The notes below the pieces were generated by a model. That model did not search any database. It worked only from the letters and a program-made list of their open reading frames with translations, and was not told the origin of the DNA. 64,000 nt of DNA from Deltaproteobacteria bacterium. Lineage in GTDB: Bacteria; Desulfobacterota; Binatia; Binatales; Binataceae. The DNA lies in the NCBI GenBank assembly GCA_021831785.1, contig JAKBMB010000006.1, positions 62,001 through 126,000 on the forward strand, read 5' to 3'. Below, piece after piece: positions 1 to 35,147 of the stretch (position 1 is its first letter; every line of letters starts with the position of its first letter). Both the position numbers and the translations under genes were made by a program.

Positions 1-778
1 TCGCTGGAGGCACGCGTCCTTCCGTGCGCGGCTGGTCCGCGGTCACCGACGCCGGGGAGTCCGAGCAAATGTCATCGCGCCCGGTATGTTCCCGATGCAC
101 GTGAACACAACTTTATTCATCTAAAGTGACCTTTGATTAACTTTCGTAGTTTAATACTAGCGCGCCGGCTAGGCAAGGGGGGGTGCTGAATCAGGCGTAT
201 GTGGCGCTCGCCACGCACCCCAACCGCGGCCCGGCCAAGGCGTTTCCCCGGTATAGGTCGCCCAGAAGCCGCCTTAGGGTTGTTCGACGGCAAAAGCCGT
301 CATTGTGGGTCTAATAAGCCGAGCTTTTTCGGCGCATTGTTTGCCGTCTTCGAGCGGCGATCTTACTTCGACGAGCCGTTTACGCCGCGCCGCCTTCCGG
401 CGTTGCGCCCACTCTTGTCATCAGGAGAAGCCGTCGTTATCAGCGCTCGGTGAGCTGCTCGGCATGCATCATTTCAATCTCACGCGCCGTGCATTTGGCG
501 CGGTGCTTGCCGTACAACTCTTAGTGGTAGCTCAGGGCAGCCAAGTTGAGACTTCAACCTCGCTGCGATATAAGACAGAGGGTCAGGAGTAGGGCGCCAG
601 AGTAGTCGCCCGAGTCCGGAGAGTGCCCGTCAAGAATATCCTTGGTATTCGCGACAGTCCGGTGCGCCGCCCGTTCATTCGCGTACGAGCAATCGGTTCG
701 GAATCTCGGGTGAAATCTACCACCTGGATTTTTACAATCCCTCAGTTCTAGGCCGAGCGGAATAGCGAGGGAAGTGTG
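1..778. other. Upstream non-coding region
   Basis: I see no convincing gene here. A frame open from the window edge runs about 41 codons to a TGA near 126 and could be the tail of a gene outside the window, but its composition is not persuasive. AT-rich sequence around 105-160 is the likeliest promoter-bearing part. A short GCCGA/TCGGC hairpin lies near 320. The segment 627-634 (ccgtcaag) weakly resembles the repeat found before the dimethylformamidase operon. Confidence 0.4.
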
Positions 779-1840
779 ATGAGTGCGAACAGAGACGAAG
801 CGAGTGAGCTTGGAGTCGGCCCACCGCAGGTTCTTGCATCGGCCGCGACCGGCGTGATCGAATTGATCAGACGGATGGGCGGAGACGTCGATCGCATCTT
901 CGGCGCCACTCGCATAGACACATCGGTCCTCGACAGCCCGCTTAACGAACTTAGCCTCAAACAATACTGCGAGCTGTTTGAGCAGGCCGCGCGGCAAACG
1001 CAGTACGACAATTTCGGTCTGCGATTTGGGCACGGCTTCCAACCAAAACAGCTTGGCGCGTTAGGGTATCTCGCGATCAATTCGCCCACCATGGCCGCGG
1101 GGCTGCGCAATTTGTGCGATTATTTTCCGGCCCACCAACAAAGCTCGACGTTAGCTCTCCGCGAAGACCGCGAATTGCTGTATCTGGACTACCAGATCAA
1201 CGACGGTTCGATCGCCCGACGGCGCCAGGACGCTGAGTTGTCACTCGGCATGTTCTGCAACATTTTTCGCCACTGCCACGGCTCGCGCTGGAGACCAATC
1301 GAGATCCATTTCGAGCATCCTAGCCCTTTGGAGCCCAAGGAGCACGAAGCGCTTGTCGAAGCGCCGGTGGTCTTCTCCCAGCGCATCAATTCGATCGTTT
1401 TCCGCCGCGCCGACCTCGAAGGTGCAATGCCCGACCCCGATTCCTATCTGTTTAGCCTGATTGAGCCGTTCATGCGCAAGCGGCGCGCCCGCCCGCGCCC
1501 TGATGATCTGGTCGGCCTGGTACGGCGGAAGATCGAAGCTCATCTCGATAACGGCAATCCGCGCATTAAGAAAGTGGCATCCGAACTGGGCCTCACGAGT
1601 TGGACACTGCATCGGCGCCTTCGCGATCTTAACGTCAACTTTCACGACTTGGTGCGTGGCGCTCGGCGTCAACTCGCGCTGCGCTATCTCTCTGAAGCCC
1701 ATCTTCCCTTGACTGAGGTGGCCTTCCTACTGGGATACTCCGAGCAAAGCGCCTTCACTCGCGCCTTCAGGCAATGGACCGGGATGGGGCCGGCGCGCTA
1801 TCGGCGCTTGCTTGTCACGGCGCGAGAGCGGCGAGAGTAG
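779..1840 (+). CDS. AraC-family transcriptional regulator
   Basis: A DNA-binding activator or repressor of about 353 residues. The N-terminal two thirds resemble the arabinose-binding-like ligand domain of OruR/ArgR-type AraC proteins. The last 100 residues carry two helix-turn-helix motifs (VASELGLTSWTLHRRL and VAFLLGYSEQSAFTRAF) and the typical PARYRR ending. The ATG at 779 is preferred because GGGAAG precedes it by four bases; a GTG lies directly before it. It converges on the minus-strand amidase and transporter operon, whose promoter holds AraC-like direct repeats, so it is the natural candidate regulator. The ligand is unknown; an amide or amine is inference. Confidence 0.9.
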   Translation: MSANRDEASELGVGPPQVLASAATGVIELIRRMGGDVDRIFGATRIDTSVLDSPLNELSLKQYCELFEQAARQTQYDNFGLRFGHGFQPKQLGALGYLAINSPTMAAGLRNLCDYFPAHQQSSTLALREDRELLYLDYQINDGSIARRRQDAELSLGMFCNIFRHCHGSRWRPIEIHFEHPSPLEPKEHEALVEAPVVFSQRINSIVFRRADLEGAMPDPDSYLFSLIEPFMRKRRARPRPDDLVGLVRRKIEAHLDNGNPRIKKVASELGLTSWTLHRRLRDLNVNFHDLVRGARRQLALRYLSEAHLPLTEVAFLLGYSEQSAFTRAFRQWTGMGPARYRRLLVTARERRE

Positions 1841-1923: not shown

Positions 1924-3348
1924 TCAAACTGCATTCTTTGCCTGCGGGCCTTCCGGTTCGTCGCAATACCCAAGCGCCTCGCCGGCATCTTTGCTGTAGC
2001 TAATGCGCGACCAATTGATTAAGTGATGCGGTCCGATGTCTTCCCCGACCGAGCTATGGCCGTAATAGCCGGTGCCGATTACGATTGAGGGCGCCCTACT
2101 GCCATCCGACTCGACAGTCCCAGAGCTGCATGGGTTGTTGGCAATGATTCGCAACGCCTTCAGTGCCGACGCGAAGGCCATGATGGTTCCGGGGTCGCGG
2201 CTATGGATAGCGGCCGAATGGCCCCCGCCGGCGTACCGCAAAATCGCGCGGCTAACATCAATCCCCGCCTCAGCGTAGCGCACGCGGCAAAGACCCAGGA
2301 CCGGAAAAAGCTTTTCACGGCAAAACGGTTCCTCCGGTACGGCTAGATCAAATGGCGCAAGCAGTACCTTTGTTTTGGGTGGAACACGAAAGCCCGCCTG
2401 ACCGGCGATCCACACGGCGTGCTTTCCCGTGACGGCCGCTTCGAACCGCCCGCCGGGAAACAGATATTTTCGCAGCCGATCGCGCTCGACCGGGGAGCAT
2501 AGATGCGCCCCGTAGGCCTTCAGATGGCGCAGCAGCCGGTCGGCAATCCCTTCCTCGACGATCAGGACGGATTCGCTGGTGGACAGAAGCGAATTGTCAA
2601 ACGACTTGCTGGCCGCAATGCACTTGGCGGCCTTGGCCGCATCAGCCGTTGCGTCGACCAACACCGGCACATTGCCTGGCCCCGCGCCGATCGCCGGATT
2701 ACCCGAGCGGTGAGCGGCCCGTAGGACGCTCATTCCGCCTGTGGCGAGGATGACATCGATCCTCGGGTCGCACATGAGCGCCTCGTTAAGCTCCAGGCTG
2801 GGCTCGTCGATGACCTGGATGGCACCATCTGGCGCACCGGCTCGCAGTGCCGCGCTGGCCAGAACTCGCGCTGCGCCGGCGGAGCAGATCTTAGCTCGTG
2901 GATGGGGACTCACAATGATTGCGTTGCGAGTCAACAGCGCGCAAATTATCTTGAAGAGGACCGTGGACACCGGGTTGGTCGACGGCGTGAGCGCAAACAC
3001 CACGCCGGCCGGCCGCGCCACCGCGACCAGCCTGCGCACTGGATCAAGGCGCGTACCGACCAAGAGCTCGCGGCGGTAGTACCCAAAGGTGCCGCGGGTG
3101 CACAATTCAATCTGCGTCCGCTTGTCCTCAGCCACTCCGAAGCCGGTTTCCCGCACGGCTTTTTCGGCGTAGTAGGCCGCCCTGGCGAAGCCAGCCTCGG
3201 CGGCTGCGTGTGCGATCCGGAGCGTTCGCTCCCGGTCTAATCGGGAGAAGGCGCCCGCGGCCCAGCGCGCGCGCCCGACCATCATGCGCACCCGCGCAAG
3301 GTCCAGTGCAAGCTCGTTCGCGGCGTCAGGCGCGATCAGTTCTGCCAT
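1924..3348 (-). CDS. Acylating aldehyde dehydrogenase homologue with Ser at the catalytic Cys
   Basis: 474 residues, the length of CoA-acylating aldehyde dehydrogenases (AdhE N-domain, EutE/PduP, sulfoacetaldehyde dehydrogenase SauS). Family hallmarks are present: TPSTNPVSTVLFK near 121, TRNAIIVSPHPRAK near 140, and GAGPGNVPVLVD near 222. Where the family has SKTFDN-x3-C, this protein reads SKSFDNSLLS, so the nucleophilic Cys is Ser256 (codon TCC at 2583-2581). Canonical thioester chemistry is therefore doubtful; the protein may have altered activity, be inactive, or carry a sequencing error. It is the last gene of the operon and overlaps the aminotransferase end by 13 bases. A partner converting an aldehyde made by the aminotransferase is inferred. 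Confidence 0.85.
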   Translation of the reverse strand: MAELIAPDAANELALDLARVRMMVGRARWAAGAFSRLDRERTLRIAHAAAEAGFARAAYYAEKAVRETGFGVAEDKRTQIELCTRGTFGYYRRELLVGTRLDPVRRLVAVARPAGVVFALTPSTNPVSTVLFKIICALLTRNAIIVSPHPRAKICSAGAARVLASAALRAGAPDGAIQVIDEPSLELNEALMCDPRIDVILATGGMSVLRAAHRSGNPAIGAGPGNVPVLVDATADAAKAAKCIAASKSFDNSLLSTSESVLIVEEGIADRLLRHLKAYGAHLCSPVERDRLRKYLFPGGRFEAAVTGKHAVWIAGQAGFRVPPKTKVLLAPFDLAVPEEPFCREKLFPVLGLCRVRYAEAGIDVSRAILRYAGGGHSAAIHSRDPGTIMAFASALKALRIIANNPCSSGTVESDGSRAPSIVIGTGYYGHSSVGEDIGPHHLINWSRISYSKDAGEALGYCDEPEGPQAKNAV

Positions 3349-4844
3349 GTGCGAGCTCCCGTTGAATTCCGCCCGAGATCTTCATCGCCGCTCACGGAAG
3401 ACCCGCCCGCTGCGCCTCTTGGATGGTCGGATCCGGAAAGAGCCCCCGTTTTTTCATCGCGCGCTTGCTTGAGGCGGTTGCGGCCGACCGCGTGGCCAAC
3501 CTCGGTAACGAGCTCGGCGGAGCGCCGCGCCGCGGGCGATCGACGAGCATTCTCGGGCCGCGCCCGCTTGCGCAACCCGCGCACTTCCCGCCGCGCCTCG
3601 CCGATCGACACCTCGACTCGATCAAGCAGCTCTTCGCACAGCTCGCGCGGCATAAGAATGCCCGGTTTAAACTGAAGGACACGGGGATCAAGGCTCGAGA
3701 AGATAGCCCAGACTCCGTTGCGGTACAGCGCCCTCATCACGTACATGGCGCCGCGCGGATGGTCGAATTCCAGGCCCATGACCAAGCCATTCTGGCGGAT
3801 GCCGATGAAGAAGTCGCGGTAGAGGGCCTGTATCTCGCGCAGCCCGGCGCCGATCAGTTCGGATATATACTGCACGAACGAGCGCACCTCGGGCCGCTGG
3901 CATATCTCCAGCACCTTGAGCGCCACGACGCAGCCGAGCTCGGCGCCGCCCGTCGTTGACATATGGCCAAAGCCGTCTTGCTTGAGCCAGCCTGCGTGAC
4001 GCTTGCCGACCACAGCGCAGGCGAGCGGATAAATGCCGCCGCCGATACCTTTGGCGGTCACCAAAATATCCGGCTCCACGCCGTATTTCGTGATTGCCCA
4101 CATCTGCCCGGTGCGCATCAGTCCGGTCTGGACTTCGTCGGCGATGTAAAGCGCGCCGTACTTCTCGCACAACCGCTTGACCCCGGGTAGATAGCCCTCT
4201 TTGGGCATGGGAAAGCCGTAGGTCGCCGGAATCGTCTCCATAAGCACGCCCGCCGCGTCGCGCCCCTTGAGTGCCCGCTCCATAGCGTCGAGATCATTGA
4301 ACGGCACCTGCGCGAAATCTTGCGGCGCACCTTCGCTGAGGAACAATTTCGAGAAGCGCTGGTCCCCGGTGCATACGGCGAGCCCCGTGTGGCCATGATA
4401 GGCCTTGATGATGGAAACGATCTTGCGTCGCTGCCTGGCGTGCCGCGCGGTCTTTATCGCGATGTCAATCGCTTCGCCGCCCGCACTACCATAGATCGTG
4501 TACTGCAGCTCGCCCGGGCAAACTTTGGCCAACTCTTCGGCGAGCGCCGTGCGCGCCAACGAGGGAAAGTGATGATTCCCGATGTCGAAGCGTTTCATCG
4601 CCTCGATCAGCGTCGCGATCAGCTCCGGGTTGCGGTGGCCGAGATTGTAAGTGCCGCCGTTCAGATGCACGTCGATAAGGCGTTTGCCGCTGATATCGTA
4701 GAGGAAATATTCTTCGCGCCGATCGATCACCAGATCGATGCCAAAGTCCTTCCAGAACTGAGTCTTACCAGGGTTCCAAAAGGTTTTGGACCGTTCAAAG
4801 AAGTCCTCCTTCGAGGCGTATGACCTGAAGCCGTAGTTGTACAT
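3336..4844 (-). CDS. Class III (omega) PLP aminotransferase
   Basis: A pyridoxal-phosphate aminotransferase of the acetylornithine/GABA/taurine type. Visible motifs are GSAGGEA at 119-125 (phosphate binding), AYHGHTG near 148, DEVQTG at 236-241 and TAKGIGGG with the Schiff-base Lys265. It moves an amino group from an omega-amino substrate to a keto acid and releases an aldehyde. A strong GGAGGAG site precedes the ATG. The enzyme fold should end near residue 430; the last 70 residues are Arg/Ala/Ser-rich, look disordered and run over the start of the next gene. Substrate is not deducible. Pairing with an acylating aldehyde dehydrogenase recalls taurine-sulfoacetaldehyde routes, but that is inference. 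Confidence 0.9.
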   Translation of the reverse strand: MYNYGFRSYASKEDFFERSKTFWNPGKTQFWKDFGIDLVIDRREEYFLYDISGKRLIDVHLNGGTYNLGHRNPELIATLIEAMKRFDIGNHHFPSLARTALAEELAKVCPGELQYTIYGSAGGEAIDIAIKTARHARQRRKIVSIIKAYHGHTGLAVCTGDQRFSKLFLSEGAPQDFAQVPFNDLDAMERALKGRDAAGVLMETIPATYGFPMPKEGYLPGVKRLCEKYGALYIADEVQTGLMRTGQMWAITKYGVEPDILVTAKGIGGGIYPLACAVVGKRHAGWLKQDGFGHMSTTGGAELGCVVALKVLEICQRPEVRSFVQYISELIGAGLREIQALYRDFFIGIRQNGLVMGLEFDHPRGAMYVMRALYRNGVWAIFSSLDPRVLQFKPGILMPRELCEELLDRVEVSIGEARREVRGLRKRARPENARRSPAARRSAELVTEVGHAVGRNRLKQARDEKTGALSGSDHPRGAAGGSSVSGDEDLGRNSTGARTWQN

Positions 4845-4949: not shown

Positions 4950-5723
4950 CTATTCCAGCGCCATGAGCGACTCCGGAAGCACTTGGCCGCCGTCGATGAC
5001 CAGAGTTTGGCCGGTGATGTAGGCGGCCTCGTCCGAGGCAAAAAACAAAGCTGCATGAGCGACGTCTTCAATCGAGCCTAGTCGCTTCAGCGGAATCGAA
5101 GCGGCCATCTTTTCGAGATAATCGGCGCCAAGGCCGTCGAGACCCTCGGTTTTGATGTTGCCGGGCATCACCGCGTTGATGGTAATGCTGTACGGGGCGA
5201 GCTCGATCGCGGCTGTGCGAATAAAGCCGAGTTGGCCGGCTTTGCTGGCGCCGTAATGCGCCCACCCAGGGTATCCGGTAATCGGTCCGGTGATTGACGA
5301 TACCACCACGATCCGCCCCTTGCCCTTGCGCTTCAGCGCCGGCAGGCAGGCCTTGATGGCCAGGAACGTTCCCTTGAGATTGACCGAGAGAACTTCGTCC
5401 CAGCACTCGGGTGTGAGGTCATCAAGCTTGGCGGCAGGGTAAATTCCGGCGTTGGCGCACAAAATGTCAATCCCGCCGTGGCGCTCGACCGCCGCCTCGG
5501 CCATGCGCTGCATGTCGGTCCAGTTGCCGACGTCGGCAGCTAAGGCCGAAGCCATGGCGCCTGTCGCCCGCAGTTCGCTCATCGCCGCCTCGGCAGCTCC
5601 GGGGTTACGCGCGACACCGAGCACACGGGCGCCATTTTTCGCAAAGACCCGCGCAATTCCCCTGCCGATGCCCTTACTGGCGCCGGTGACAATGACGGAT
5701 GACCCCGCGATCGATGTCAGCAT
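4950..5723 (-). CDS. SDR-family oxidoreductase (FabG-like)
   Basis: A 257-residue short-chain dehydrogenase. It has the NAD(P)-binding TGASKGIG at 13-20, the NAG structural motif, the catalytic Ser (SSITG) with Tyr-x3-Lys (HYGASKAG), PGNIKTE, and the IDGG C-terminal motif of classical SDRs. It interconverts a hydroxyl and a carbonyl in the cytoplasm. GGAGG stands before the ATG, which supports this start. It lies between the importer genes and the aminotransferase on the same strand, 105 bases before the latter, so it probably handles an alcohol or ketone intermediate of the imported compound. The exact substrate cannot be told. Confidence 0.88.
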
Positions 5724-5865: not shown

Positions 5866-6897
5866 CTACTTTTGCGCGGGCGCCATCTCCTTTGGCTGGA
5901 TGGCGCTCAACTGGCGGGAGCCGCGCGGCCGCAGATGACGCCCGAGCGCTTCCAGGCCGCCATAAAGGCCGTTAGGCCACAGGACCGCAAACAACACGAG
6001 CATCAAACCCAGCCCGAGAAGCCTCCACTCGACGAACTCTTTCAAGACCTCGTCCACCACCATGAGAGCTGTAGCCCCGAGTAACGGCCCCCATATTTGT
6101 CCGACTCCGCCGATAATCATCATCGACAAGAGAAAGAGGGTCTGCGAGAGATAAAGGGTGTTGGCCCCCATCACCCGGAAATGTCCGGCGTAAACCGCCC
6201 CCGCCAAACCGGTAAACAGCGCCGAAGCCGCGAAAACCAGAAGCTGATATTTGAACCGGCTGATGCCGCGAGATATGGCATAGACGGCGTTGTCGCGCAT
6301 TGCCTGGAATGCAAGCCCCAGGGGGCTGCGGATGATGAACACCGAGAAGATCGTGGCCGCGCAGAGCACCCCCAGCGCGAGGAAATAGTCGCCGAAGGCC
6401 GTGTACTTGTAAGGCAAGAGCTGGTGAAAACCGAAGTCGCCGTACCCGGTCAAACCTCGCGTCCCGCCGGTGAAGTTGCGGCAGGTAACTCCTTCCATAT
6501 AGAAGCACTCGGTGTCAGTGATGATTAGCAAATACATAGTTTGCGTGATCGCCAGCGTGAGCAGCGCCACGTACGCGCCCCGCAGCCGCAAGCACGCGAC
6601 GCCGACCAGCGCGCTGAAGATCGCCGCCGCCAAGCCGCCGGCGAACATCGCCAGCCATAGCGACCAGCCGAGGTAAAGCCCCAGCATCCCGGTCGCGTAG
6701 CCGCCAACCGCGAAAATGGCCATCTGGGCCAGCGAGAATACGCCCGCCACACCGAACACCAGGTTCCATTGGGTTACCACTGTCGCCCAGACAAAAAACA
6801 GCGTCATCTCCTCGATAACGTAACGAGTTGGCCATGCGAAAGGCACGAGTATCGCCACGATGAGGGCTAAAAGACCGATGGTTGCATCGCGCCTCAT
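5866..6897 (-). CDS. livM: Liv-type ABC transporter permease, LivM family
   Basis: An inner-membrane permease of the hydrophobic amino acid/amide uptake (HAAT) family. About 343 residues with roughly ten hydrophobic segments. Family sequence is clear: AIFAVGGYATG, an arginine-rich cytoplasmic loop near FIIRSPLGLAFQAMRDN, and MMIIGGVGQIWGPLLGA. I start at the ATG at 6897 (MRRDATIGLLAL) because the longer reading frame would overlap livH by 160 bases with non-membrane, Cys/Ser-rich sequence. It partners LivH in forming the pore. Confidence 0.9.
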   Translation of the reverse strand: MRRDATIGLLALIVAILVPFAWPTRYVIEEMTLFFVWATVVTQWNLVFGVAGVFSLAQMAIFAVGGYATGMLGLYLGWSLWLAMFAGGLAAAIFSALVGVACLRLRGAYVALLTLAITQTMYLLIITDTECFYMEGVTCRNFTGGTRGLTGYGDFGFHQLLPYKYTAFGDYFLALGVLCAATIFSVFIIRSPLGLAFQAMRDNAVYAISRGISRFKYQLLVFAASALFTGLAGAVYAGHFRVMGANTLYLSQTLFLLSMMIIGGVGQIWGPLLGATALMVVDEVLKEFVEWRLLGLGLMLVLFAVLWPNGLYGGLEALGRHLRPRGSRQLSAIQPKEMAPAQK

Positions 6898-6913
6898 CGC
6901 ACCGCCGCAGGGC

Positions 6914-7792
6914 TTAAAACCGCTGTGTCGAACCGCGGCCGAACACGCCGTAAGGTCGCCAGACAAGCGTGAGAATGATGAGCAACAGCATGGCGGGGAA
7001 GCCAAAACGCACGCCGAGAAAAAACTGCACGGCCGCTTCGAAGATGCCCAGCGCGAAGGCCGCGTATAGGGCGCCATAGATGTTGCCTAATCCGGCCACG
7101 ACGCACACGATAAACGCCTTGAGCATAGGGTCGTATCCCATCGTGGGCGCCAACGTAGTAATGGTGCTGAGCATCACCCCGGACAGCGCGGCCAGCACGC
7201 CCGCGATTGTCAGAACCTGGAGGTATACGACCTTTACCGGTACGCCCATCAGCAGAGCGGCGGCGCGGTTCTGCGACACGGCCCGGATCGCCCGGCCCAT
7301 CCTGGTGCGCTCAAGCACCCATCCCACCGCTATCATCGCGACGATCGACATAACCAGAATGCCGATGCTCTCGTAAGGGATGTAGGTAGCGGCGATATTT
7401 ACGCCCCCCTCGATACGTATCGGCTGCCTGAGCGGATAGGCTCCGAAGGTTTGCAGCACCACGTTCTCGAAAATCAGAGCGAGACCGACGGTGGCGATGA
7501 TGACGTTGGTCTCGAAGGTCGCGCTTTCGAGCATGAATCGAACGACGAAGAAATAAGTCCCAGCGCCAACGGCGGCGCCCGCAAGAGCGGCTAAAGCGAG
7601 TGCGAGTGGCGCGGACATGCCCAAGAACACCGCGCCGGCGTACGCGGCGTAGCCACCGACCACCAGAAAGGCGCCCTGCGCCATGTTAAGCACGCCAACC
7701 GCACCCCATGCGAGCGATAAGCCGATCGTGCTTATTGCGTACATCGCTCCCAGCGTGAGTCCGCTCACCAGAATCTGCACAAAGGTGTTCAC
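6914..7792 (-). CDS. livH: Liv-type ABC transporter permease, LivH family
   Basis: 292 residues, almost wholly membrane-spanning. The N-terminus QILVSGLTLGAMYAISTIGLSLAWGA and GVLNMAQGAFLVVGGY match the LivH family, as does the loop RTRMGRAIRAVSQNRAAALLMG that docks the ATPases. A GTG start lies nine bases after the livF stop. With LivM it forms the transmembrane channel for the solute delivered by the downstream-encoded periplasmic binding protein. Confidence 0.92.
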   Translation of the reverse strand: MNTFVQILVSGLTLGAMYAISTIGLSLAWGAVGVLNMAQGAFLVVGGYAAYAGAVFLGMSAPLALALAALAGAAVGAGTYFFVVRFMLESATFETNVIIATVGLALIFENVVLQTFGAYPLRQPIRIEGGVNIAATYIPYESIGILVMSIVAMIAVGWVLERTRMGRAIRAVSQNRAAALLMGVPVKVVYLQVLTIAGVLAALSGVMLSTITTLAPTMGYDPMLKAFIVCVVAGLGNIYGALYAAFALGIFEAAVQFFLGVRFGFPAMLLLIILTLVWRPYGVFGRGSTQRF

Positions 7793-7801
7793 GGACGCGC
7801 G

Positions 7802-8527
7802 TCAGCTCCCCAGGTAAGTCTCAAGCAAGTCTTGATGATCGAAGAGCGCATGCGGCGCGCCCTCCCAAACGATGCGTCCGTCGTCGAGAAGGTAGACCAG
7901 GTCGGCGATGTCCACGATGCGGTTGGCGTTCTCCTCGACCAGCAGAATCGTCCGGCCGCGCGCCTTTAGATTGGCGATTACGGAGTACACTTGATCTATC
8001 GCGAGCGGGGCGAGCCCCAGCGAAGGCTCGTCGAACATTAAAAGCTCACCGCCGGACATCAGCCCGCGGCCGATCGCCAGCATGCGCCGTTCGCCGCCCG
8101 ACAGTGTGTTCGCGGTCTGGAGCCGCCGCTCCCACAACGCCGGCAACAGCCCGTAAACCTCCTCCAGCCGCCGAGACGCCACCGCGTTCGCCGCCGGAAG
8201 GTACGCCCCCATCATCAGGTTGTCCGCGACGCTCATCGCGGAAAACAACAAGTCGCCTTGCGGGACGTGCACGATGCCCTGTGCGACTATGTTGTTCACT
8301 CGCCGGCCGACGATGCTCGTTCCGCCGAATCGAATATCGCCGGCCGTTAACCGCAGCAGTCCGGAGACGCAGCGCAGCAGCGTCGTCTTGCCATGGCCGT
8401 TAGGACCAATCAGCGTGGCCAGTTTGCCTTTGGCCAGCGTCAGCGAGACGCCGCGCAATACCTCGTGGTCCCGGTAGCCCGCAACCAGGCCGCGAATTTC
8501 GAGCAGCGCCGGAGCATCCATCGTCAT
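7802..8527 (-). CDS. livF: Liv-type ABC transporter ATPase, LivF family
   Basis: A 241-residue nucleotide-binding subunit. Walker A is GPNGHGKTTLL, the ABC signature LSGGERRMLAIGRGLM, Walker B LLMFDEPSLGLAP, and the switch His lies further on. It overlaps the livG stop as ATGA, indicating translational coupling. It drives import through LivH/LivM together with LivG. Confidence 0.93.
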   Translation of the reverse strand: MTMDAPALLEIRGLVAGYRDHEVLRGVSLTLAKGKLATLIGPNGHGKTTLLRCVSGLLRLTAGDIRFGGTSIVGRRVNNIVAQGIVHVPQGDLLFSAMSVADNLMMGAYLPAANAVASRRLEEVYGLLPALWERRLQTANTLSGGERRMLAIGRGLMSGGELLMFDEPSLGLAPLAIDQVYSVIANLKARGRTILLVEENANRIVDIADLVYLLDDGRIVWEGAPHALFDHQDLLETYLGS

Positions 8528-9315
8528 GAAGCGGCCACGAGCTGGGACAACCGCCGCGCCGTGGCGTCGCCCAGATATACCGAGACAACCGTAGGATCGC
8601 GCACCATACCTTCGGGTGAACCCTCGTAGATCTTTTCCCCATGCTGCATGATAATAATCCGCGCGCAGAGCTGGACCATGAACCGCATGACGTGCTCGAT
8701 CAGAACGATCGTCAGGCCGCGGCCTGACAATGATCGAACAACCTTCATCACTCGATCGATTTCGCTGGGATTAAGACCACCCACCGGCTCGTCCAACAGC
8801 AACAGCAAAGGCTCGGTCGCCAGCGCGCTGGCGAACATGGCAAGTTTACGGTCAAGTATGGGCAGATTCCTGATGGGAACCTCCGCGCGCTCGCGCAACC
8901 CAACCGCCTCCAGCGCGCGATCGGCCCGCGCAAGCGTGCCGCGATCGAAGACCAGCGGCGGCATCAGACGCAGTCTATGGCCGTAGGCCGCGCCGATCAC
9001 GACGTTCTCACGCAGCGTCATGCTGTCGAAAGCGGCAACGGATTGGAACACACGCGCAAGCCCGCGGTGGCAAAGCTCCTGAGGCGAGGCCGTGATCACG
9101 TGCTCGCCATTGAATAGAATAGAGCCGGCATCGGCCGGCTGTAGCCCGGCGATGACGTCGAACAAGGTGGTTTTGCCGGCGCCGTTGGGCCCGCCGATAC
9201 CGACTATTTCTCCCGCGCGCACGTCGAAGCTGAGCGCCCTCACGGCTGCCATCGCGCCATAGTATTTCGACACGCCTTGACATGACAGCAGCGCCGCGGA
9301 GTTACCGGCGGCCAT
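8524..9315 (-). CDS. livG: Liv-type ABC transporter ATPase, LivG family (variant signature)
   Basis: 263 residues. Walker A GPNGAGKTTLF and Walker B LLLLLDEPVGGLNPSE are intact, and the long LivG insertion is present. The signature segment, usually LPYGxQ in this family, reads NLPILDRKLAMFASALA and lacks the glycine. Similar diverged signatures occur in some HAAT ATPases, so this may be a family trait and not decay; the site would be completed by LivF's normal LSGGE. One base separates it from the binding-protein gene. Confidence 0.9.
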   Translation of the reverse strand: MAAGNSAALLSCQGVSKYYGAMAAVRALSFDVRAGEIVGIGGPNGAGKTTLFDVIAGLQPADAGSILFNGEHVITASPQELCHRGLARVFQSVAAFDSMTLRENVVIGAAYGHRLRLMPPLVFDRGTLARADRALEAVGLRERAEVPIRNLPILDRKLAMFASALATEPLLLLLDEPVGGLNPSEIDRVMKVVRSLSGRGLTIVLIEHVMRFMVQLCARIIIMQHGEKIYEGSPEGMVRDPTVVSVYLGDATARRLSQLVAAS

Positions 9316-9316
9316 G

Positions 9317-10693
9317 TCACCCTCTCATCCACGGCGGCAGCTTGAAGCTAGCAGTCTGGTAAGGCGGCGGAGCGATCAGCTCGGGCTCCTTCTTGTAATC
9401 CTGGATCTGCAGATATTGATGCGGCATGCCCAGCGAAGGATCCTTCGTTGCGTCGGGATACGGAATGGCGGCCTGCTCCGGGACGAAGAAGCGCGTCGTG
9501 CCCATCACGCCGCGATAGATCATCGTGCGCAGCCGGTCCGCTACCTTGCGATTCTGATCGAATTCGCCGGGTCCGCTGGTGCCCCCGGCGACCGCCGCCG
9601 CGAGCGCGTAATAATGAGCGCTATCGTACACCTGCGCCGCGACCAATGGGCTGGCCGAAGGTCCGAATCTCTTCTTGTAGCGCCGATTGAAATCCTCGCC
9701 GATCTGGTCGCGCAGCGAGGCGATCACGGTTGAGTAGAGCACGCCATTGGTGGCCTTGCCGCCGATTTCGCGAAAGGCCGCCAGCGACGGCCCGTACTGC
9801 ATGTAGACGAGGCTGCCGGTCGGGTTGGGGGTGAACTGCAGCATGAACTGTGCTAGGTCTTGCGGCACCCAGTGGGTGACCGCGACTACCGCAGGCGGGT
9901 CGTTGCGAATCTTCGCCAGCGTCGGCCCCCACTCCGAGATCGGCACCACGACGGTCTCGGATAAGCTGATCTTCCAGCCATAGTTCTTGGCCTTCGCTTT
10001 GATAGCATTGGCGATGACCACGCTGTAGTTCTGGGAGCCCGTGACCACCGCGATTTTGTTATTCGGCCGCTTCCAGTGTCCTGATTCCCCCAGGCCATTG
10101 AGGAAAGCGAGCAGACCTTCACCGTACCAGTACTCGGCCGGATCGCCCATGAAGATGCCGAAGTACTTTTTCGGATTCTTGCCGACCGTGCTGTGATGGA
10201 CGATGTCGGTGTTGTGATGGATGTAGATGATGCCGGCGTCGGCGATGCTGTCATACTCGGCCGTGACGGCGCCGGTGTTATAACCGTTTACGATAGCGTG
10301 CACGCCGTAGCGGTCGATGAGCCGCTGCATCGCCGGAATAATGTTGTCAGCGCCCTGTTCCTTAGTGTCCTCGAAGTGCGGCTCAAGCGGCCGACCGAGG
10401 ATGCCGCCGAGCATGTTTATCTCGTCGCAGGACATCTCAAGCGCGCGTTTGAACTCGATGCCGTCGGCGGCCGCCCACCCGGTCAGCGGCACCCCCGCGC
10501 CGATCGGGATCGGCTTGTTGTCAGTTGTCTTGCCGGCTTCCTTGGCTTGGCTATTGATCGCCGCGAGCATGCCGCTTCCGAGCGCGACGCCTGCGCTTGC
10601 GGCCGCGCCGACCGCGCGCTTGAGGAAGTTGCGCCGGCCCGGTTCCGTCGCTGCAGCGTTTTCGCCGCGTGCCATGGGGATTTTTGTGTGCAT
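9317..10693 (-). CDS. Periplasmic substrate-binding protein of a Liv/amide ABC importer
   Basis: A Peripla_BP_6-type ligand-binding protein of about 458 residues, akin to amide/urea receptors (AmiC, UrtA, FmdD) and LivK. The N-terminus holds a Tat motif, RRNFLKRA at 20-27, before a hydrophobic stretch, so it is exported folded. IPIGAGVPLTGWAAADG and MSCDEINMLGGILGRP match the start of the binding fold. I start at the ATG at 10693 because AGGAG precedes it and the signal peptide follows; an upstream extension of 85 residues in the same frame is basic and overlaps the dimethylformamidase gene. Position next to the amidase genes suggests it binds an amide or its product. Confidence 0.9.
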   Translation of the reverse strand: MHTKIPMARGENAAATEPGRRNFLKRAVGAAASAGVALGSGMLAAINSQAKEAGKTTDNKPIPIGAGVPLTGWAAADGIEFKRALEMSCDEINMLGGILGRPLEPHFEDTKEQGADNIIPAMQRLIDRYGVHAIVNGYNTGAVTAEYDSIADAGIIYIHHNTDIVHHSTVGKNPKKYFGIFMGDPAEYWYGEGLLAFLNGLGESGHWKRPNNKIAVVTGSQNYSVVIANAIKAKAKNYGWKISLSETVVVPISEWGPTLAKIRNDPPAVVAVTHWVPQDLAQFMLQFTPNPTGSLVYMQYGPSLAAFREIGGKATNGVLYSTVIASLRDQIGEDFNRRYKKRFGPSASPLVAAQVYDSAHYYALAAAVAGGTSGPGEFDQNRKVADRLRTMIYRGVMGTTRFFVPEQAAIPYPDATKDPSLGMPHQYLQIQDYKKEPELIAPPPYQTASFKLPPWMRG

Positions 10694-10761
10694 CTTTGTT
10701 TCTCCTGGTCTTAACGTTTCGCGATGCAATTGCGCTCCGGCTCCCGGCACCGGCGCTGGGC

Positions 10762-13011
10762 TCAGAACGGTCTTTCGTCGAGGAACCGCCTGAGCACGTT
10801 GCTCGTAATCCGGGACACGTCGTTGTCGTAATTGTGGTGCGAAAGGCTTCCCGCCCAAGCGATAGAGCCGGTGGCGAACACCGCTCCGCCGCTTGGAGTT
10901 TCGTAAAACACGATATCGGCGCGGACCAAGTCGTTTTCCCCACCGCACAGGCCGGGAGCGTTGATCAAGATCTCCTCTAACACGACCATATAGATCGGCG
11001 TGTGGTTCTCGGAAGAAGCCAGCACGAGCGCGTTTGGCGGTGTGCCCAGCAGGCGGTCGGCTCGATCTAATTCAAGACCGGCCGCGCCTCCGCCGATCAG
11101 GCCGAAATTGCCGATCAGTTCATCCTTGTCGACTCCCTCGAAGATGAAATTCACGCGTGAGTCGAAACTTTCTTTGGTGCGGCGATAATACGAGGAGAGG
11201 TCGAAGCCTTGCGCCGAGAACCCGACTCCGGCCATCTTTTGCGGGGCGAGACCTTGACGGCGCCAGAGCCCGCCGTGCTCCCCGGTAAAGCTGTGGTAAT
11301 ATTCGCCGGGCTCGGCGGCCCAGGCGCGAATGCCGCCCTCGGCGCGGCGCACCTCAATTACACCCGGCTTGGTCGGATGGTACGCGATGCGCCAGTACCA
11401 CGCGTTGCCGCCGGTATAGATAAGCCGCCCACCGGCCTTTTTAAACGCGTCGAGCGCATCCCACATTTGCTTCGACCAGTACTCGTGATGAGTCGAGGTC
11501 ATGAAAACGCGGTAAGGCGCGATTGCCTCGTAGCCTTCGGCGTGCAAGTCTTCGTCGGTAATGCAGTCGTAGTCGAACTTCATCGCCTCGAGCCAGTCGA
11601 TGATGTGTGTGTCCGCGTTCATCTGCCAGAGCGAGGAGCCCTTGCCTCCCAGCCATGATTGATATTTCGGCCGCATTGTCAGAATCGGCCTAAGCCGCGA
11701 GGAGTAGCATACGCCGCTGCCGTCCGAGTGGGTGTCGTAGCAAGAGTAGCCGTATTCGCGGTGTTCGTGGAGAAATACGTCTACGGGCTGAAGCGCGACG
11801 ACGCTGCCGGTCAGGAGCTCCGCGAGTGCGGCATCGGTGGCCATGTGCTCGTTTGCATAAGCCATGTAGCTAGCCGTAGGCACCACGAAGACCAGTTTGG
11901 ATGTGGCTTTCCCGCGCTCCGGTCTGATTACGAACGGTATAAAGTCCTCGTCGTCTTCAGTCGCGACATGCGCGGCGTAGAGGCCGCTTTGGAGACCTGC
12001 CGGTGCGGTGAAAGCGAAGTCGGCCTCCCATCCGGCGTCGTAGAGGTCGTCGTCGTGAAAGTGGATGGCCCCATACTGCTCGGGTTTGTGCCGCCAGCAC
12101 ATTTCTTCGCCGGTCCAGTTCCAGCCGGTCATCGCGCGGGCGGGGAGATTTAGCGTCTCGCCGTGGTGACGATTGGGTGACACGTCGATGATTTGCTCTG
12201 TAGTGATTTGTTTGGAGAAGTCCCATAGCCCCACGATCGCGCTGCTCAGCGAATGAGGTGGATCGCCGCCGCGCAGTTGCTCCATTTCGAGTCGAGACAG
12301 CACCCGGTCGGCTAGCGATGGCCGATCGATCTTCCCGTTGTAGTGCCCGTCCGTCCGCGCGCGGCCGTTGGACGTCTGTGCGTAATGGGCGGCGACGACA
12401 AACGGCGCGCCGTTGGCATGACGCGGCCTCACCTTCGCGGTGCGTCGCAACTCGGCCGACGTGTCTACCTTGGCATACGCCACTAGCGGGTCCTGATAGA
12501 GGCAGACCTCGCCGTTTGCCGCGTTGTAGCTGGCAGCCACGAAATACCACTCTCTGGCCAGCATTACCTTGCCGGTCCGGACGTCTTCACTCGCGCCTGT
12601 GCCGTCGCCGAGCGTGAGCACCAACCCACCTTGGTCATCGAGGCCGAGAATAAAGCCCGCGCCTGACTTGGCGTTCCAACGGCTTAATATGCTCTGACGC
12701 CCTTTCTCCGGAGTGGTCGGCCACACCATCGCTTGGACGGAAAAGCTGCCTAGCTGCTCAAAGGCGCGGTGGTTGGGGATGACGATGCACGAACCAGGGC
12801 ATATCGCTTGCTTGCGTCCCTTGTAGGTGCCCTCGAGGTCGCTCTTAACCGCCCGCTCTTTATATCCTGGGCCCTCGGGATTGGTGTCGCCGTGAATAAT
12901 CCGCACAAGGCGCGCCTTGTAGTTCGAAGCCTTTTCGCAGGACACCATGAACCGAATCGTCTCGCTTGGGCACACACTAATCTTGTCGCTATAACCCATG
13001 ATTTGTTTCAT
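10762..13011 (-). CDS. dmfA2: N,N-dimethylformamidase large (beta) subunit-like iron amidohydrolase
   Basis: 749 residues, close to the roughly 760 of Paracoccus DMFase large subunits, which hydrolyse dimethylformamide to dimethylamine and formate with a mononuclear iron. Residues about 85-250 look like a concanavalin/laminin-G-type lectin fold (FSVQAMVWPT ... WYFVAASYNAANG). The catalytic part begins near 300 and shows PTASYMAYANEH (Tyr382/385), GYSCYDTHSDG (Tyr425) and STHHEYW (His508, Glu510), matching the Tyr-Tyr-Glu iron ligands and nearby His reported for the enzyme. It follows the small subunit gene by about 50 bases. Family assignment is firm; the true substrate could be another N-substituted amide. 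Confidence 0.88.
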   Translation of the reverse strand: MKQIMGYSDKISVCPSETIRFMVSCEKASNYKARLVRIIHGDTNPEGPGYKERAVKSDLEGTYKGRKQAICPGSCIVIPNHRAFEQLGSFSVQAMVWPTTPEKGRQSILSRWNAKSGAGFILGLDDQGGLVLTLGDGTGASEDVRTGKVMLAREWYFVAASYNAANGEVCLYQDPLVAYAKVDTSAELRRTAKVRPRHANGAPFVVAAHYAQTSNGRARTDGHYNGKIDRPSLADRVLSRLEMEQLRGGDPPHSLSSAIVGLWDFSKQITTEQIIDVSPNRHHGETLNLPARAMTGWNWTGEEMCWRHKPEQYGAIHFHDDDLYDAGWEADFAFTAPAGLQSGLYAAHVATEDDEDFIPFVIRPERGKATSKLVFVVPTASYMAYANEHMATDAALAELLTGSVVALQPVDVFLHEHREYGYSCYDTHSDGSGVCYSSRLRPILTMRPKYQSWLGGKGSSLWQMNADTHIIDWLEAMKFDYDCITDEDLHAEGYEAIAPYRVFMTSTHHEYWSKQMWDALDAFKKAGGRLIYTGGNAWYWRIAYHPTKPGVIEVRRAEGGIRAWAAEPGEYYHSFTGEHGGLWRRQGLAPQKMAGVGFSAQGFDLSSYYRRTKESFDSRVNFIFEGVDKDELIGNFGLIGGGAAGLELDRADRLLGTPPNALVLASSENHTPIYMVVLEEILINAPGLCGGENDLVRADIVFYETPSGGAVFATGSIAWAGSLSHHNYDNDVSRITSNVLRRFLDERPF

Positions 13012-13062
13012 TTTTCGTGCCTCCGCGTCGTATGCCGCGCCCGGCGCTCCAAAATCGCGGCC

Positions 13063-13362
13063 TCAATCGCCTAGATTCTCGCCTGCGTATTTCGCCCAAC
13101 GCTGTTTGAAAACATACCACTCGGCCTGTTCAATCGACTGGAAGACCTCCTCGGTCATTCGAATGCGTTCGCCACGCGCGCCGGGCAGTACGGCCAGCGT
13201 CCATTCTCGATGTGGGCGGGTGCAGATTAAGACGTACTTGCCCGCCATCGGCTCGCCGCGAAACAAATTCAAGATGCGCTGCAGATTGGGGGAATGATGC
13301 CCGATGGGGGTCTTCTTGAACTCCTCGACATACGCTTTGTCCTCAGGTCTTATTTGGTACAT
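13063..13362 (-). CDS. dmfA1: N,N-dimethylformamidase small (alpha) subunit-like protein
   Basis: About 99 residues, shorter than the roughly 130 of Paracoccus alpha subunits. The pattern HHSPNLQRILNLFRGEPMAGKY followed by R-x-W and a C-terminal helix ending in VFKQRW agrees with the alpha subunit pattern H-x-SP-x-LQR-x2-N-x-FR. GGAGG before the ATG at 13362 decides the start over a codon ten residues upstream. It is the first gene of the operon and stabilises the large subunit in known DMFases. A leader of about 80 bases separates it from the predicted promoter. Confidence 0.8.
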   Translation of the reverse strand: MYQIRPEDKAYVEEFKKTPIGHHSPNLQRILNLFRGEPMAGKYVLICTRPHREWTLAVLPGARGERIRMTEEVFQSIEQAEWYVFKQRWAKYAGENLGD

Positions 13363-13444
13363 TTGAGCCTCCGACCTGCCTGGCCTTCGCACCGCGGACG
13401 AGCAATCATCCGCTCGTCGGCTGAGACACCCCTCGGCATACAGT

Positions 13445-13505
13445 AACTGACCTTATATTGTGTATCGCTCCGATGGCTTGACAGACGATAACAAATCCTT
13501 GACAG
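13445..13505 (-). promoter_or_regulatory. Predicted AraC-type operator and promoter of the dmf operon
   Basis: On the minus strand the octamer CTGTCAAG occurs twice, at 13505-13498 and 13484-13477, exactly 21 bases apart (two helical turns, the spacing of araI half-sites). Downstream lies TATAAG at 13457-13452, and a 17-base spacer places the -35 at 13480-13475, inside the promoter-proximal repeat. That is the class II arrangement of AraC activators. The start of transcription would be near 13445. The repeats read as TTGACA on the plus strand, but no matching -10 or plus-strand gene follows. Confidence 0.5.
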
Positions 13506-13529
13506 CGGTGGAGCGGCGGGTGATTGCGT

Positions 13530-14540
13530 TCAGCCGAAACGGCGCAGGTAGTCTTCAGCCAGATGACAAGTGATCTCGGTAAATGGGACGCCGTGCTGGC
13601 GAGCGAGGTCGGTCTCGGCGTGAGAGCCTATCCACGCGACCAGTAGCAAGCGGCGCAGCATTATGAACGTTGGGATCTCCGCGGCTTCCTCGCGCGCAAG
13701 GCGAGCGGCTTTTCGATATCCGATGGTCCAGGCCTCGACCAACTCCGGCACGTCCCGATGATGCTCAATAAAGCTCAGCGCCGCGCCGAGGTCGTAGAGA
13801 TGCCAGCTAAAGCCGCAGTCGTCGAAATCGATGACCTTGGTCCGTTCTCCTTCAACCAAGAGATTGGCCAGCCGCAGATCGGCATGGACGAGCCCAAAGC
13901 GATCCGGTGGCGCGCCGTATGCCTCCAGCCGGCGCCTTATCGTGGCCGACATGCGCTCCAGGATGCGGCTGCGCGCGCCATGCACGCCCAGTCCGTCTTG
14001 CCAGCGCCCCCAGATCGGCCGCTCTCCAAGCGTCGTCTCATAGTCCCACCGCTGGCGCACGAACCCGACCGGCCGACGCCACGCCCTCGCCTGCAGATGC
14101 ATGCGCGCGGTAATCTCGCCAAGCCGCTCGAACGCGGCGCGCAGATCGTGTTCGCTCGGCTCCCGTCCGTGCAAAAATTGGAACATCACGGCATGGCGCG
14201 GCTGAGGCAGTTCAGGGCTGTGCAGGGTCTGGATCAACGAACCGTCCTTGGCCGCAATGGGTTCGGGCGTCTCGACCCCCGCTTCACAGCGCAGCGCGGT
14301 CATCCACAGCAGCTCCGAGCGAATCGCCTCGAAGCTGTGATACCCGAGGCGATGCACCCGCAGGATTGTCAGCACCCCGTTCGTCGGGTTTTCCACGCGA
14401 AACGTGGTGTTCTCGGAATGATTAATTGCAGTTACGATCGTCTGTTTCGGCAGGCCGTAGTGCTCTACCGCGGCCTGAGCTAGGCGATGAATTCGTACCA
14501 GGAGCTCTTGCGTCGAAATCGCCTCCATCGCTTTAGTCAA
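13530..14540 (-). CDS. Aminoglycoside phosphotransferase-fold kinase
   Basis: A 336-residue APH-family small-molecule kinase (homoserine kinase ThrB2/stress kinase SrkA-like group). The catalytic loop is VHADLRLANLL (His219, Asp221, Asn226) and the metal-binding motif VIDFDDCGF (Asp238). An N-terminal lobe with NTTFRVENPTNGVLTILRVHR resembles the ATP-binding sheet. It may use the internal ATG four codons in (MEAIS). Substrate unknown. It ends the long minus-strand run that begins at ruvX and abuts the dmf promoter region. Confidence 0.8.
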   Translation of the reverse strand: MTKAMEAISTQELLVRIHRLAQAAVEHYGLPKQTIVTAINHSENTTFRVENPTNGVLTILRVHRLGYHSFEAIRSELLWMTALRCEAGVETPEPIAAKDGSLIQTLHSPELPQPRHAVMFQFLHGREPSEHDLRAAFERLGEITARMHLQARAWRRPVGFVRQRWDYETTLGERPIWGRWQDGLGVHGARSRILERMSATIRRRLEAYGAPPDRFGLVHADLRLANLLVEGERTKVIDFDDCGFSWHLYDLGAALSFIEHHRDVPELVEAWTIGYRKAARLAREEAAEIPTFIMLRRLLLVAWIGSHAETDLARQHGVPFTEITCHLAEDYLRRFG

Positions 14541-33677: not shown

Positions 33678-35147
33678 ATGATGAATCAGCCAGTCGTACT
33701 TTCCGTACAAAAGGATATATCCGACTTGCACCGCGTGTTTGACAGGCAACGCGAAGCTTTCCAGAGCGGCCAGTATCCGAGCGTGCAAGCGCGGCGCCGG
33801 TTGCTTAAGCGGCTTGAAGCGATGGTGATCGGGCACGAGCGCGAAATTGCGCAAGTGATCGGCGCCGACTTCGGCCATCGCTCAGCCGACGAAACCAAAT
33901 TGCTGGAGGTGGTGCCGACTTTAAACGCTATCAGGTACGCCTATAAGCGCGCCGCGCGCTGGATGAAACCGCAGCGCCGGCACGTATCGATCACCTTTCA
34001 ACCTGGCAGGTCATGGGTCATTTATCAGCCGCTTGGTGTCGTGGGAATCGTCGTGCCATGGAACTACCCGCTGTATCTGGCGATAGCTCCTCTCACGGAT
34101 GCGCTTGCCGCCGGCAACCGCGCAATTATCAAGCCCTCAGAGTCTACCCCGCTTTTCGCCGAGCTTTTGCATCAAATAGTCCAGAGCAGGTTTGACGAAA
34201 GCGAAGTTGCGGTGGTGACAGGCGGACCTGACGTAGCCCAGGCGCTTTGTTCTCTACCCCTTGACCATCTTCTATTTACCGGTTCGGCCCGAGTGGCGCG
34301 CCAAGTAATGAAAGCGGCAGCAGAGAATCTCACTCCGGTTACGCTTGAGCTGGGAGGCAAGTCGCCTGCAATTGTGTGTCCGGATTATTCAATCGATAAA
34401 GCCGCGCGCAGCATCGCCCTGGGCAAATTCTTAAACGCGGGCCAGACCTGCGTTGCGCCGGATTACGTCCTGGCGCCGGCGGAAAAAGTCACGCAGGTTG
34501 CCCAGAGCGTTCTTGAATATGCACGCAGGTTTTACCCGCGAATTGATCACAACGGGGATTACACCTCGATAGTCAGCGGCCGGCATTATAAGCGTTTGCT
34601 TCAGGCGATTGAGGAGGCGGGGAGCGCCGGCGCCACGATATTACGTTATGACGACGTAAGGGCAGAGGAGCGAAAGATTGGTCCGACGATTGTGCTCGAA
34701 CCGCCCCGCGACTGTTTGCTGATGCGGGAGGAAATTTTCGGCCCGGTCCTGCCTATTGTCACCTACCGCACAATCGATGAGGCACTGGGCGAGGTTACGC
34801 GGCGTGAGCGGCCTTTGGCTCTTTATTGTTTCACCAATGACAAGCGGCTTCGCCAGCGCATCCTGATGAAGACGTTCTCGGGCGGTGTGACGGTCAATGG
34901 CACGCTGCTCCACGTGGCGCAAGAAGACCTGCCTTTTGGAGGCGTTGGGGCAAGCGGAATGGGCGCTTACCATGGCTTTGAGGGCTTCAAACGCTTCAGC
35001 CACGCCCGCGCGGTGTTTGCGGTGGGATTCATGAATGGCTCCGAGCTGCTTGCCCCGCCCTACGGGAAGCTAGCCCGACTGGTGGGCCGTTTGCTTATCG
35101 GCCGACGGAGACAAGCGCAGAGGCGGGTCCGTCAATTGAGGGGCTAA
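33678..35147 (+). CDS. Aldehyde dehydrogenase, coniferyl-aldehyde dehydrogenase type
   Basis: 489 residues of the class 3/CALDH branch of NAD(P)-dependent aldehyde dehydrogenases. Catalytic residues are Asn129 (VVPWNYP), Glu224 (TLELGGKSP) and Cys258 (NAGQTCVAPDY). The C-terminal end with a hydrophobic and basic stretch (KLARLVGRLLIGRRRQAQRR) may bind the membrane, as in fatty aldehyde dehydrogenases. It oxidises an aldehyde to an acid. The PQQ alcohol dehydrogenase 225 bases downstream would supply that aldehyde. Confidence 0.92.
   Translation: MMNQPVVLSVQKDISDLHRVFDRQREAFQSGQYPSVQARRRLLKRLEAMVIGHEREIAQVIGADFGHRSADETKLLEVVPTLNAIRYAYKRAARWMKPQRRHVSITFQPGRSWVIYQPLGVVGIVVPWNYPLYLAIAPLTDALAAGNRAIIKPSESTPLFAELLHQIVQSRFDESEVAVVTGGPDVAQALCSLPLDHLLFTGSARVARQVMKAAAENLTPVTLELGGKSPAIVCPDYSIDKAARSIALGKFLNAGQTCVAPDYVLAPAEKVTQVAQSVLEYARRFYPRIDHNGDYTSIVSGRHYKRLLQAIEEAGSAGATILRYDDVRAEERKIGPTIVLEPPRDCLLMREEIFGPVLPIVTYRTIDEALGEVTRRERPLALYCFTNDKRLRQRILMKTFSGGVTVNGTLLHVAQEDLPFGGVGASGMGAYHGFEGFKRFSHARAVFAVGFMNGSELLAPPYGKLARLVGRLLIGRRRQAQRRVRQLRG

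Follow-up and report, generated by a model that had tools for sequence, protein, structure and literature searches.

An aldehyde dehydrogenase (AldDH) gene in the DNA analysed here, a stretch of 64,000 nucleotides referred to throughout as the window, encodes a serine where acylating AldDHs of the AdhE/EutE type carry their catalytic cysteine. The question raised by this locus is whether the serine is an error in the sequence, a mark of decay, or a change that has been retained, and in the last case what the protein may still do.

The catalytic position and the remaining active site

The replacement of the catalytic Cys, reported in the first-pass annotation, was confirmed by the codon (TCC), by translation of the ORF and by a phmmer alignment with the AdhE structures 6ahc, 6tqh and 3my7, in which SKSFDNSLLS lies under SKTFDNGVIC with no gap nearby. 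The AdhE structures match the whole chain of the window AldDH (E 3.4e-85), and the nearest NCBIfam model is the AdhE-type NF010378, with 407 bits over residues 17-451 and a curated cut-off of 951. The EutE-like and SauS NCBIfam models are also matched, and the AdhE, EutE-like and SauS scores are all below their curated cut-offs. A single-sequence structure prediction of the protein had a mean pLDDT of 34. The features of the locus are listed in Table 1.

Table 1. Genes and codons of the AldDH locus, in window positions
Feature	Position	Strand	Remarks
AraC-type regulator (QhpR model)	776..1840	+	Convergent with the AldDH gene; adjoins it in G001 too
AldDH homologue, AutC/RMM type, 474 aa	1924..3348	-	Ser256 replaces the catalytic Cys; no C-terminal encapsulation helix
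Ser256 codon TCC, in place of the catalytic Cys	2581..2583	- (GGA on +)	
Gln79 codon, replacing the conserved Lys (K94 of Cphy1178)	3112..3114	-	Coordinates computed from the ORF start
Class III aminotransferase-fold PLP enzyme, RMM partner of the AldDH; probable phospholyase or aminotransferase	3336..4844	-	PLP Lys265 kept
SDR, AutB-type	4950..5723	-	Top PDB matches 6ci9/6ci8, E 1.5e-97
Branched-chain/urea/amide-type ABC transporter: two permeases, two ATPases	5866..9315	-	
ABC substrate-binding protein	9317..10948 as listed	-	True start probably downstream, as the listed ORF overlaps the next ORF
N,N-dimethylformamidase-like large subunit	10762..13011	-	6lvb, E 4.4e-192
Small ORF, possibly the formamidase small subunit	13063..13392	-	By position only; no family match
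APH-fold kinase, AutD-type	13530..14540	-	Top PDB match 6ef6, E 1.2e-83

In the accessible text on the homologue Cphy1178 (PMC4762007), C269 is the nucleophile and H387, which lies within 2.5 Å of it, is proposed as its base, C269A and H387A both being inactive; E357 activates CoA, and N138 and K94 form the relay. Counted along the 4c3s alignment and our own alignment, C269, H387, E357, N138 and K94 correspond to S256, H377, E345, N125 and Q79 of the window protein. The base, H377, is retained in both Ser proteins found (the second is described below), and so are E345, N125 and the nucleotide-site residues. Position 79 is Gln in both, and each of the 33 other rows that are not gapped at this position has Lys. 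The earlier statement that the remaining family motifs are intact is thus only partly true: it holds for the His, Glu and Asn, and fails for the relay Lys.

Distribution of the serine and constraint on the gene

The same serine was found in a second species of the genus (G001), the only other one that the search brought up, where the motif reads SKAFDNSLLS, again with codon TCC, in a protein 67-69% identical to that of the window. The gene order there is as in the window: class III aminotransferase, AldDH, AraC regulator, then a sugar transferase and gyrA/gyrB. In two alignments every row from outside the genus (32 of 32 and 12 of 12) has Cys at the catalytic position, as do all ten RMM-type relatives (L009, L043 and L092-L099), the nearest outside the genus. 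In the comparison with close homologues proposed in the first-pass annotation, Ser is conserved within the genus (2/2 species) and Cys is present in all of these relatives outside it. A 36-row alignment has 2 Ser, 5 Pro and 29 Cys at this position.

Both Ser proteins form one clade (100/100) nested in the RMM clade (100/100). In a class-wide search of 148 genomes, RMM-type matches came from the window genome and G001 alone among the matches listed; the tallies of genome searches are to be read as "at least", part of the first-pass candidates having been scored. No relative was found in the viral contigs scanned with the RMM alignment, and no further AdhE/EutE-type AldDH was seen in the window genome. 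G001 also encodes another PLP enzyme and another RMM-type AldDH, adjoining a DeoR-like regulator (L041, G001:C115, 1422-3239); this AldDH keeps Lys79, and its contig ends upstream of the catalytic site. The RMM AldDH of L095 (G1050, about 8639-11157) is split over two ORFs in different frames, by a frameshift in either the gene or the assembly, and was excluded from the tree, the distance ratios and the seven-taxon column comparison. L043 and L092, whose aminotransferase is of another type, were excluded from the distance ratios.

Between the window and G001 the AldDH has a dN/dS of 0.207 (dS 1.12, dN 0.232), the highest among the six genes compared (aminotransferase 0.144, sugar transferase 0.108, AraC 0.104, gyrA 0.090 and gyrB 0.070). 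Of 144 columns without variation among the RMM Cys proteins, the window protein departs at 25 and that of G001 at 34, against 0-8% in leave-one-out controls. A further comparison used seven taxa, with the Ser rows lying outside them and their count thereby inflated; there, both Ser proteins depart at 21 columns that do not vary among the Cys relatives. The aminotransferase is also raised (14% against at most 8%), and the kinase (9%) and SDR (11%) are without acceleration, their controls reaching 16% and 12%. The AldDH distance of the Ser pair is 0.325, compared with 0.18-0.21 for Cys pairs at the same aminotransferase distance (~0.09-0.11). The ratio of AldDH to aminotransferase distance is 2.98 for the Ser pair, 1.75-2.23 for the five Cys pairs whose aminotransferases are about as far apart, and 3.05 for the near-identical Cys pair L096/L097. 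The two Ser proteins differ from one another at 26/149 invariant as against 103/288 variable columns of the seven-taxon comparison. Judged from these comparisons, the gene remains under constraint, which has relaxed to some extent.

These results bear on the four readings of the serine offered in the first-pass annotation: a new activity and a regulatory pseudoenzyme, both taken up below, a recent loss, and a sequencing error. That it was an error of sequencing or assembly has in its favour that the genomes are drafts; because a second species, in an independent genome and with a protein 31-33% diverged, shares the Ser, the codon and the gene order, this reading is excluded as far as sequence allows, and we regard it as vanishingly improbable. 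On the sequence evidence the change is fixed in the lineage, and is neither chance nor error. A very recent loss is unlikely, since the change is older than a species split with dS ~1.1. The view that the gene is not in general decay is supported by the dN/dS of 0.21 and by the open frame in both species.

An RMM/Aut-type operon without a shell

The PLP enzyme, SDR, APH-fold kinase and AldDH characteristic of RMM loci are all present in the window, and the catalytic motifs of the first three are in place; all four enzymes lie inside the stretch in 6 of the 10 RMM stretches examined. The top matches of the SDR (6ci9/6ci8) are what we take to be the M. smegmatis RMM aminopropanol dehydrogenase, and that of the kinase (6ef6) is presumably the M. 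smegmatis RMM amino-propanol kinase. The pathway may be read as a kinase step followed by a phospholyase step; the RMM kinase is reportedly the subject of a JBC paper of 2018 by Mallette and Kimber. In actinobacterial loci the AldDH stands beside a class III-fold PLP enzyme, BMC shell genes, an APH kinase and an SDR. The substrate of the RMM/Aut locus is proposed, in the accessible parts of two papers, to be amino-2-propanol or aminoacetone (PMC4207490, PMC6620236).

On sequence grounds, the window AldDH is the AldDH member of an RMM/Aut-type amino-alcohol pathway. Like AutC, the RMM/Aut CoA-acylating AldDH, with which it shares a clade (100/100), it has a PLP enzyme, an SDR and an APH kinase as operon partners, and its gene is adjacent to that of the PLP enzyme, which it overlaps at its start by 13 bases. 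Unlike AutC, it has Ser for Cys and Gln for the relay Lys, and no encapsulation helix. Such a helix is present at the C-terminus of the Cys relatives, for example REEIRRLILEELASLVRS; it is missing from both Ser proteins in a comparison of C-termini by eye, in which the end of the fragment L083/L095 was unreadable. Furthermore, the shell families PF00936 and PF03319 had no match in the genomes of the window organism or G001, and the controls, E. coli and Synechococcus, were both matched. The window locus therefore differs from RMM/Aut microcompartment loci in its genome having no shell genes, and also in the amidase and ABC transporter of its operon.

As the formamidase-like subunit and the transporter lie between the kinase and the SDR, the pathway probably begins with the uptake and hydrolysis of an amide. 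That a dimethylformamidase-like amidase and an amide/urea-type ABC transporter share an operon with RMM amino-alcohol enzymes (5866-14540) suggests that N-acyl amino alcohols or similar amides are broken down. The PLP enzyme has a C-terminal tail of ~80 residues (3336-3570) that is missing in three of four aligned relatives; the fourth, from RHA1, has a helix-like tail of another kind.

Possible roles of the serine protein

Loss of the catalytic Cys has a precedent in GRM1 loci, whose second AldDH has Ser or Pro in its place and is described as putatively inactive in the accessible parts of the sources (Axen 2014, PMC4207490; PMC8217296). As there, the window protein has had its Cys replaced, here by Ser, and is retained in an aldehyde-pathway operon; unlike the GRM1 proteins, it belongs to a separate clade, inside RMM, and whereas the GRM1 locus has another AldDH, with Cys, no other of the AdhE/EutE type was found in the window genome. 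In five further AldDHs of this phylum (L101-L105), each encoded ~6 kb from a Cys copy, Pro stands at the catalytic position and Gln at that of the His base (377). From this pairing and the Pro they appear to be GRM1-like pseudo-AldDHs. As the Ser proteins keep the His that all five Pro copies have lost, these seem to be different kinds of loss. A further comparison is human ALDH16A1, described in the accessible text of PMC10650815 as a pseudoenzyme; like the window protein, it is a retained ALDH fold without the catalytic Cys, and unlike it, it has lost the whole catalytic triad and is an animal protein of a non-acylating family. The literature search, with most subscription journals outside its coverage, gave no report of such a Cys replacement in an RMM/Aut AldDH or in a shell-less locus. 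Within that coverage, Cys-to-Ser and Cys-to-Pro AldDHs are known from GRM1 loci, and the same change in a shell-less RMM/Aut-type AldDH is apparently new.

The explanation that we favour, at a probability of roughly one in two, is that the protein is a pseudo-AldDH, which has lost CoA-acylating oxidation and been kept for another role. With both the Cys and the relay Lys lost, normal CoA-acylating oxidation is unlikely, and the retention of the frame, the place in the operon and the constraint argues for some role. An AutC-type AldDH of an RMM/Aut-type amino-alcohol operon, working without a microcompartment shell, would have changed its catalytic Cys to Ser and its relay Lys to Gln in the ancestor of the genus. 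NAD- and CoA-dependent aldehyde oxidation would most likely have been lost, and purifying selection may have retained a folded protein, probably able to bind NAD(H) and aldehyde, as a scaffold or regulator partnering the adjacent PLP enzyme. The aldehyde would be processed by other enzymes; since no second AdhE/EutE-type AldDH was seen in the window genome, these would be classical ALDHs or alcohol dehydrogenases. One classical ALDH, encoded 30 kb away (33678-35147) and with its GQTC motif intact, could take over this oxidation. Having to leave the aldehyde to other enzymes counts against a pseudo-AldDH. So does the retention of H377, E345, Asn125 and the nucleotide-site residues, which goes beyond the needs of a mere scaffold; and Cys to Ser is a milder change than Cys to Ala, the substitution tested in Cphy1178.

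Those retained residues would be accounted for if Ser256, with His377 and Glu345, formed a Ser-His nucleophile. The protein might then hydrolyse acyl-CoA or esters, transfer acyl groups or slowly oxidise or reduce aldehydes, for instance. The conservation of these residues in both species, with Gln in place of the His in the Pro copies, the closeness of the equivalent His to the nucleophile in Cphy1178 and the constraint on the gene are all consistent with this, and the change of the relay Lys would suit the loss of a CoA step. We nevertheless consider it a tentative alternative, as other invariant positions drift too, and a literature search that returned mostly general ALDH papers brought up no Ser-based ALDH. 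The narrower proposal of a serine-based member of the acylating AldDHs, with the relay Lys gone, the reaction changed (to the hydrolysis of acyl esters or acyl-CoA, for instance), and the pathway also without a microcompartment, is somewhat more doubtful still. Comparably doubtful is a slowly decaying relic, in which the AldDH step became dispensable once the shell was gone and the gene is drifting. The dN/dS above that of the other five genes compared, the changes at invariant columns and the distance ratio of the Ser pair would all fit such a relic, although the last is matched by L096/L097, and in the seven-taxon comparison the Ser count is inflated and the aminotransferase raised as well. 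Against decay, dN/dS is far below 1 across a dS of 1.1 with the frames open in both species, the differences between the two Ser proteins favour variable over invariant columns, and the start of the gene overlaps the gene upstream. In order of likelihood, the pseudo-AldDH therefore comes first, a Ser-His enzyme second and slow decay third.

In the locus, microcompartment-type AldDHs have lost their catalytic Cys for a second time and independently, found here alongside a missing shell and a missing encapsulation helix, in proteins that keep the His base lost from the inactive GRM1-like copies. It raises the questions of whether the AldDH step is needed in a shell-less amino-alcohol pathway, and whether the active site of an acylating AldDH may be workable with a serine.
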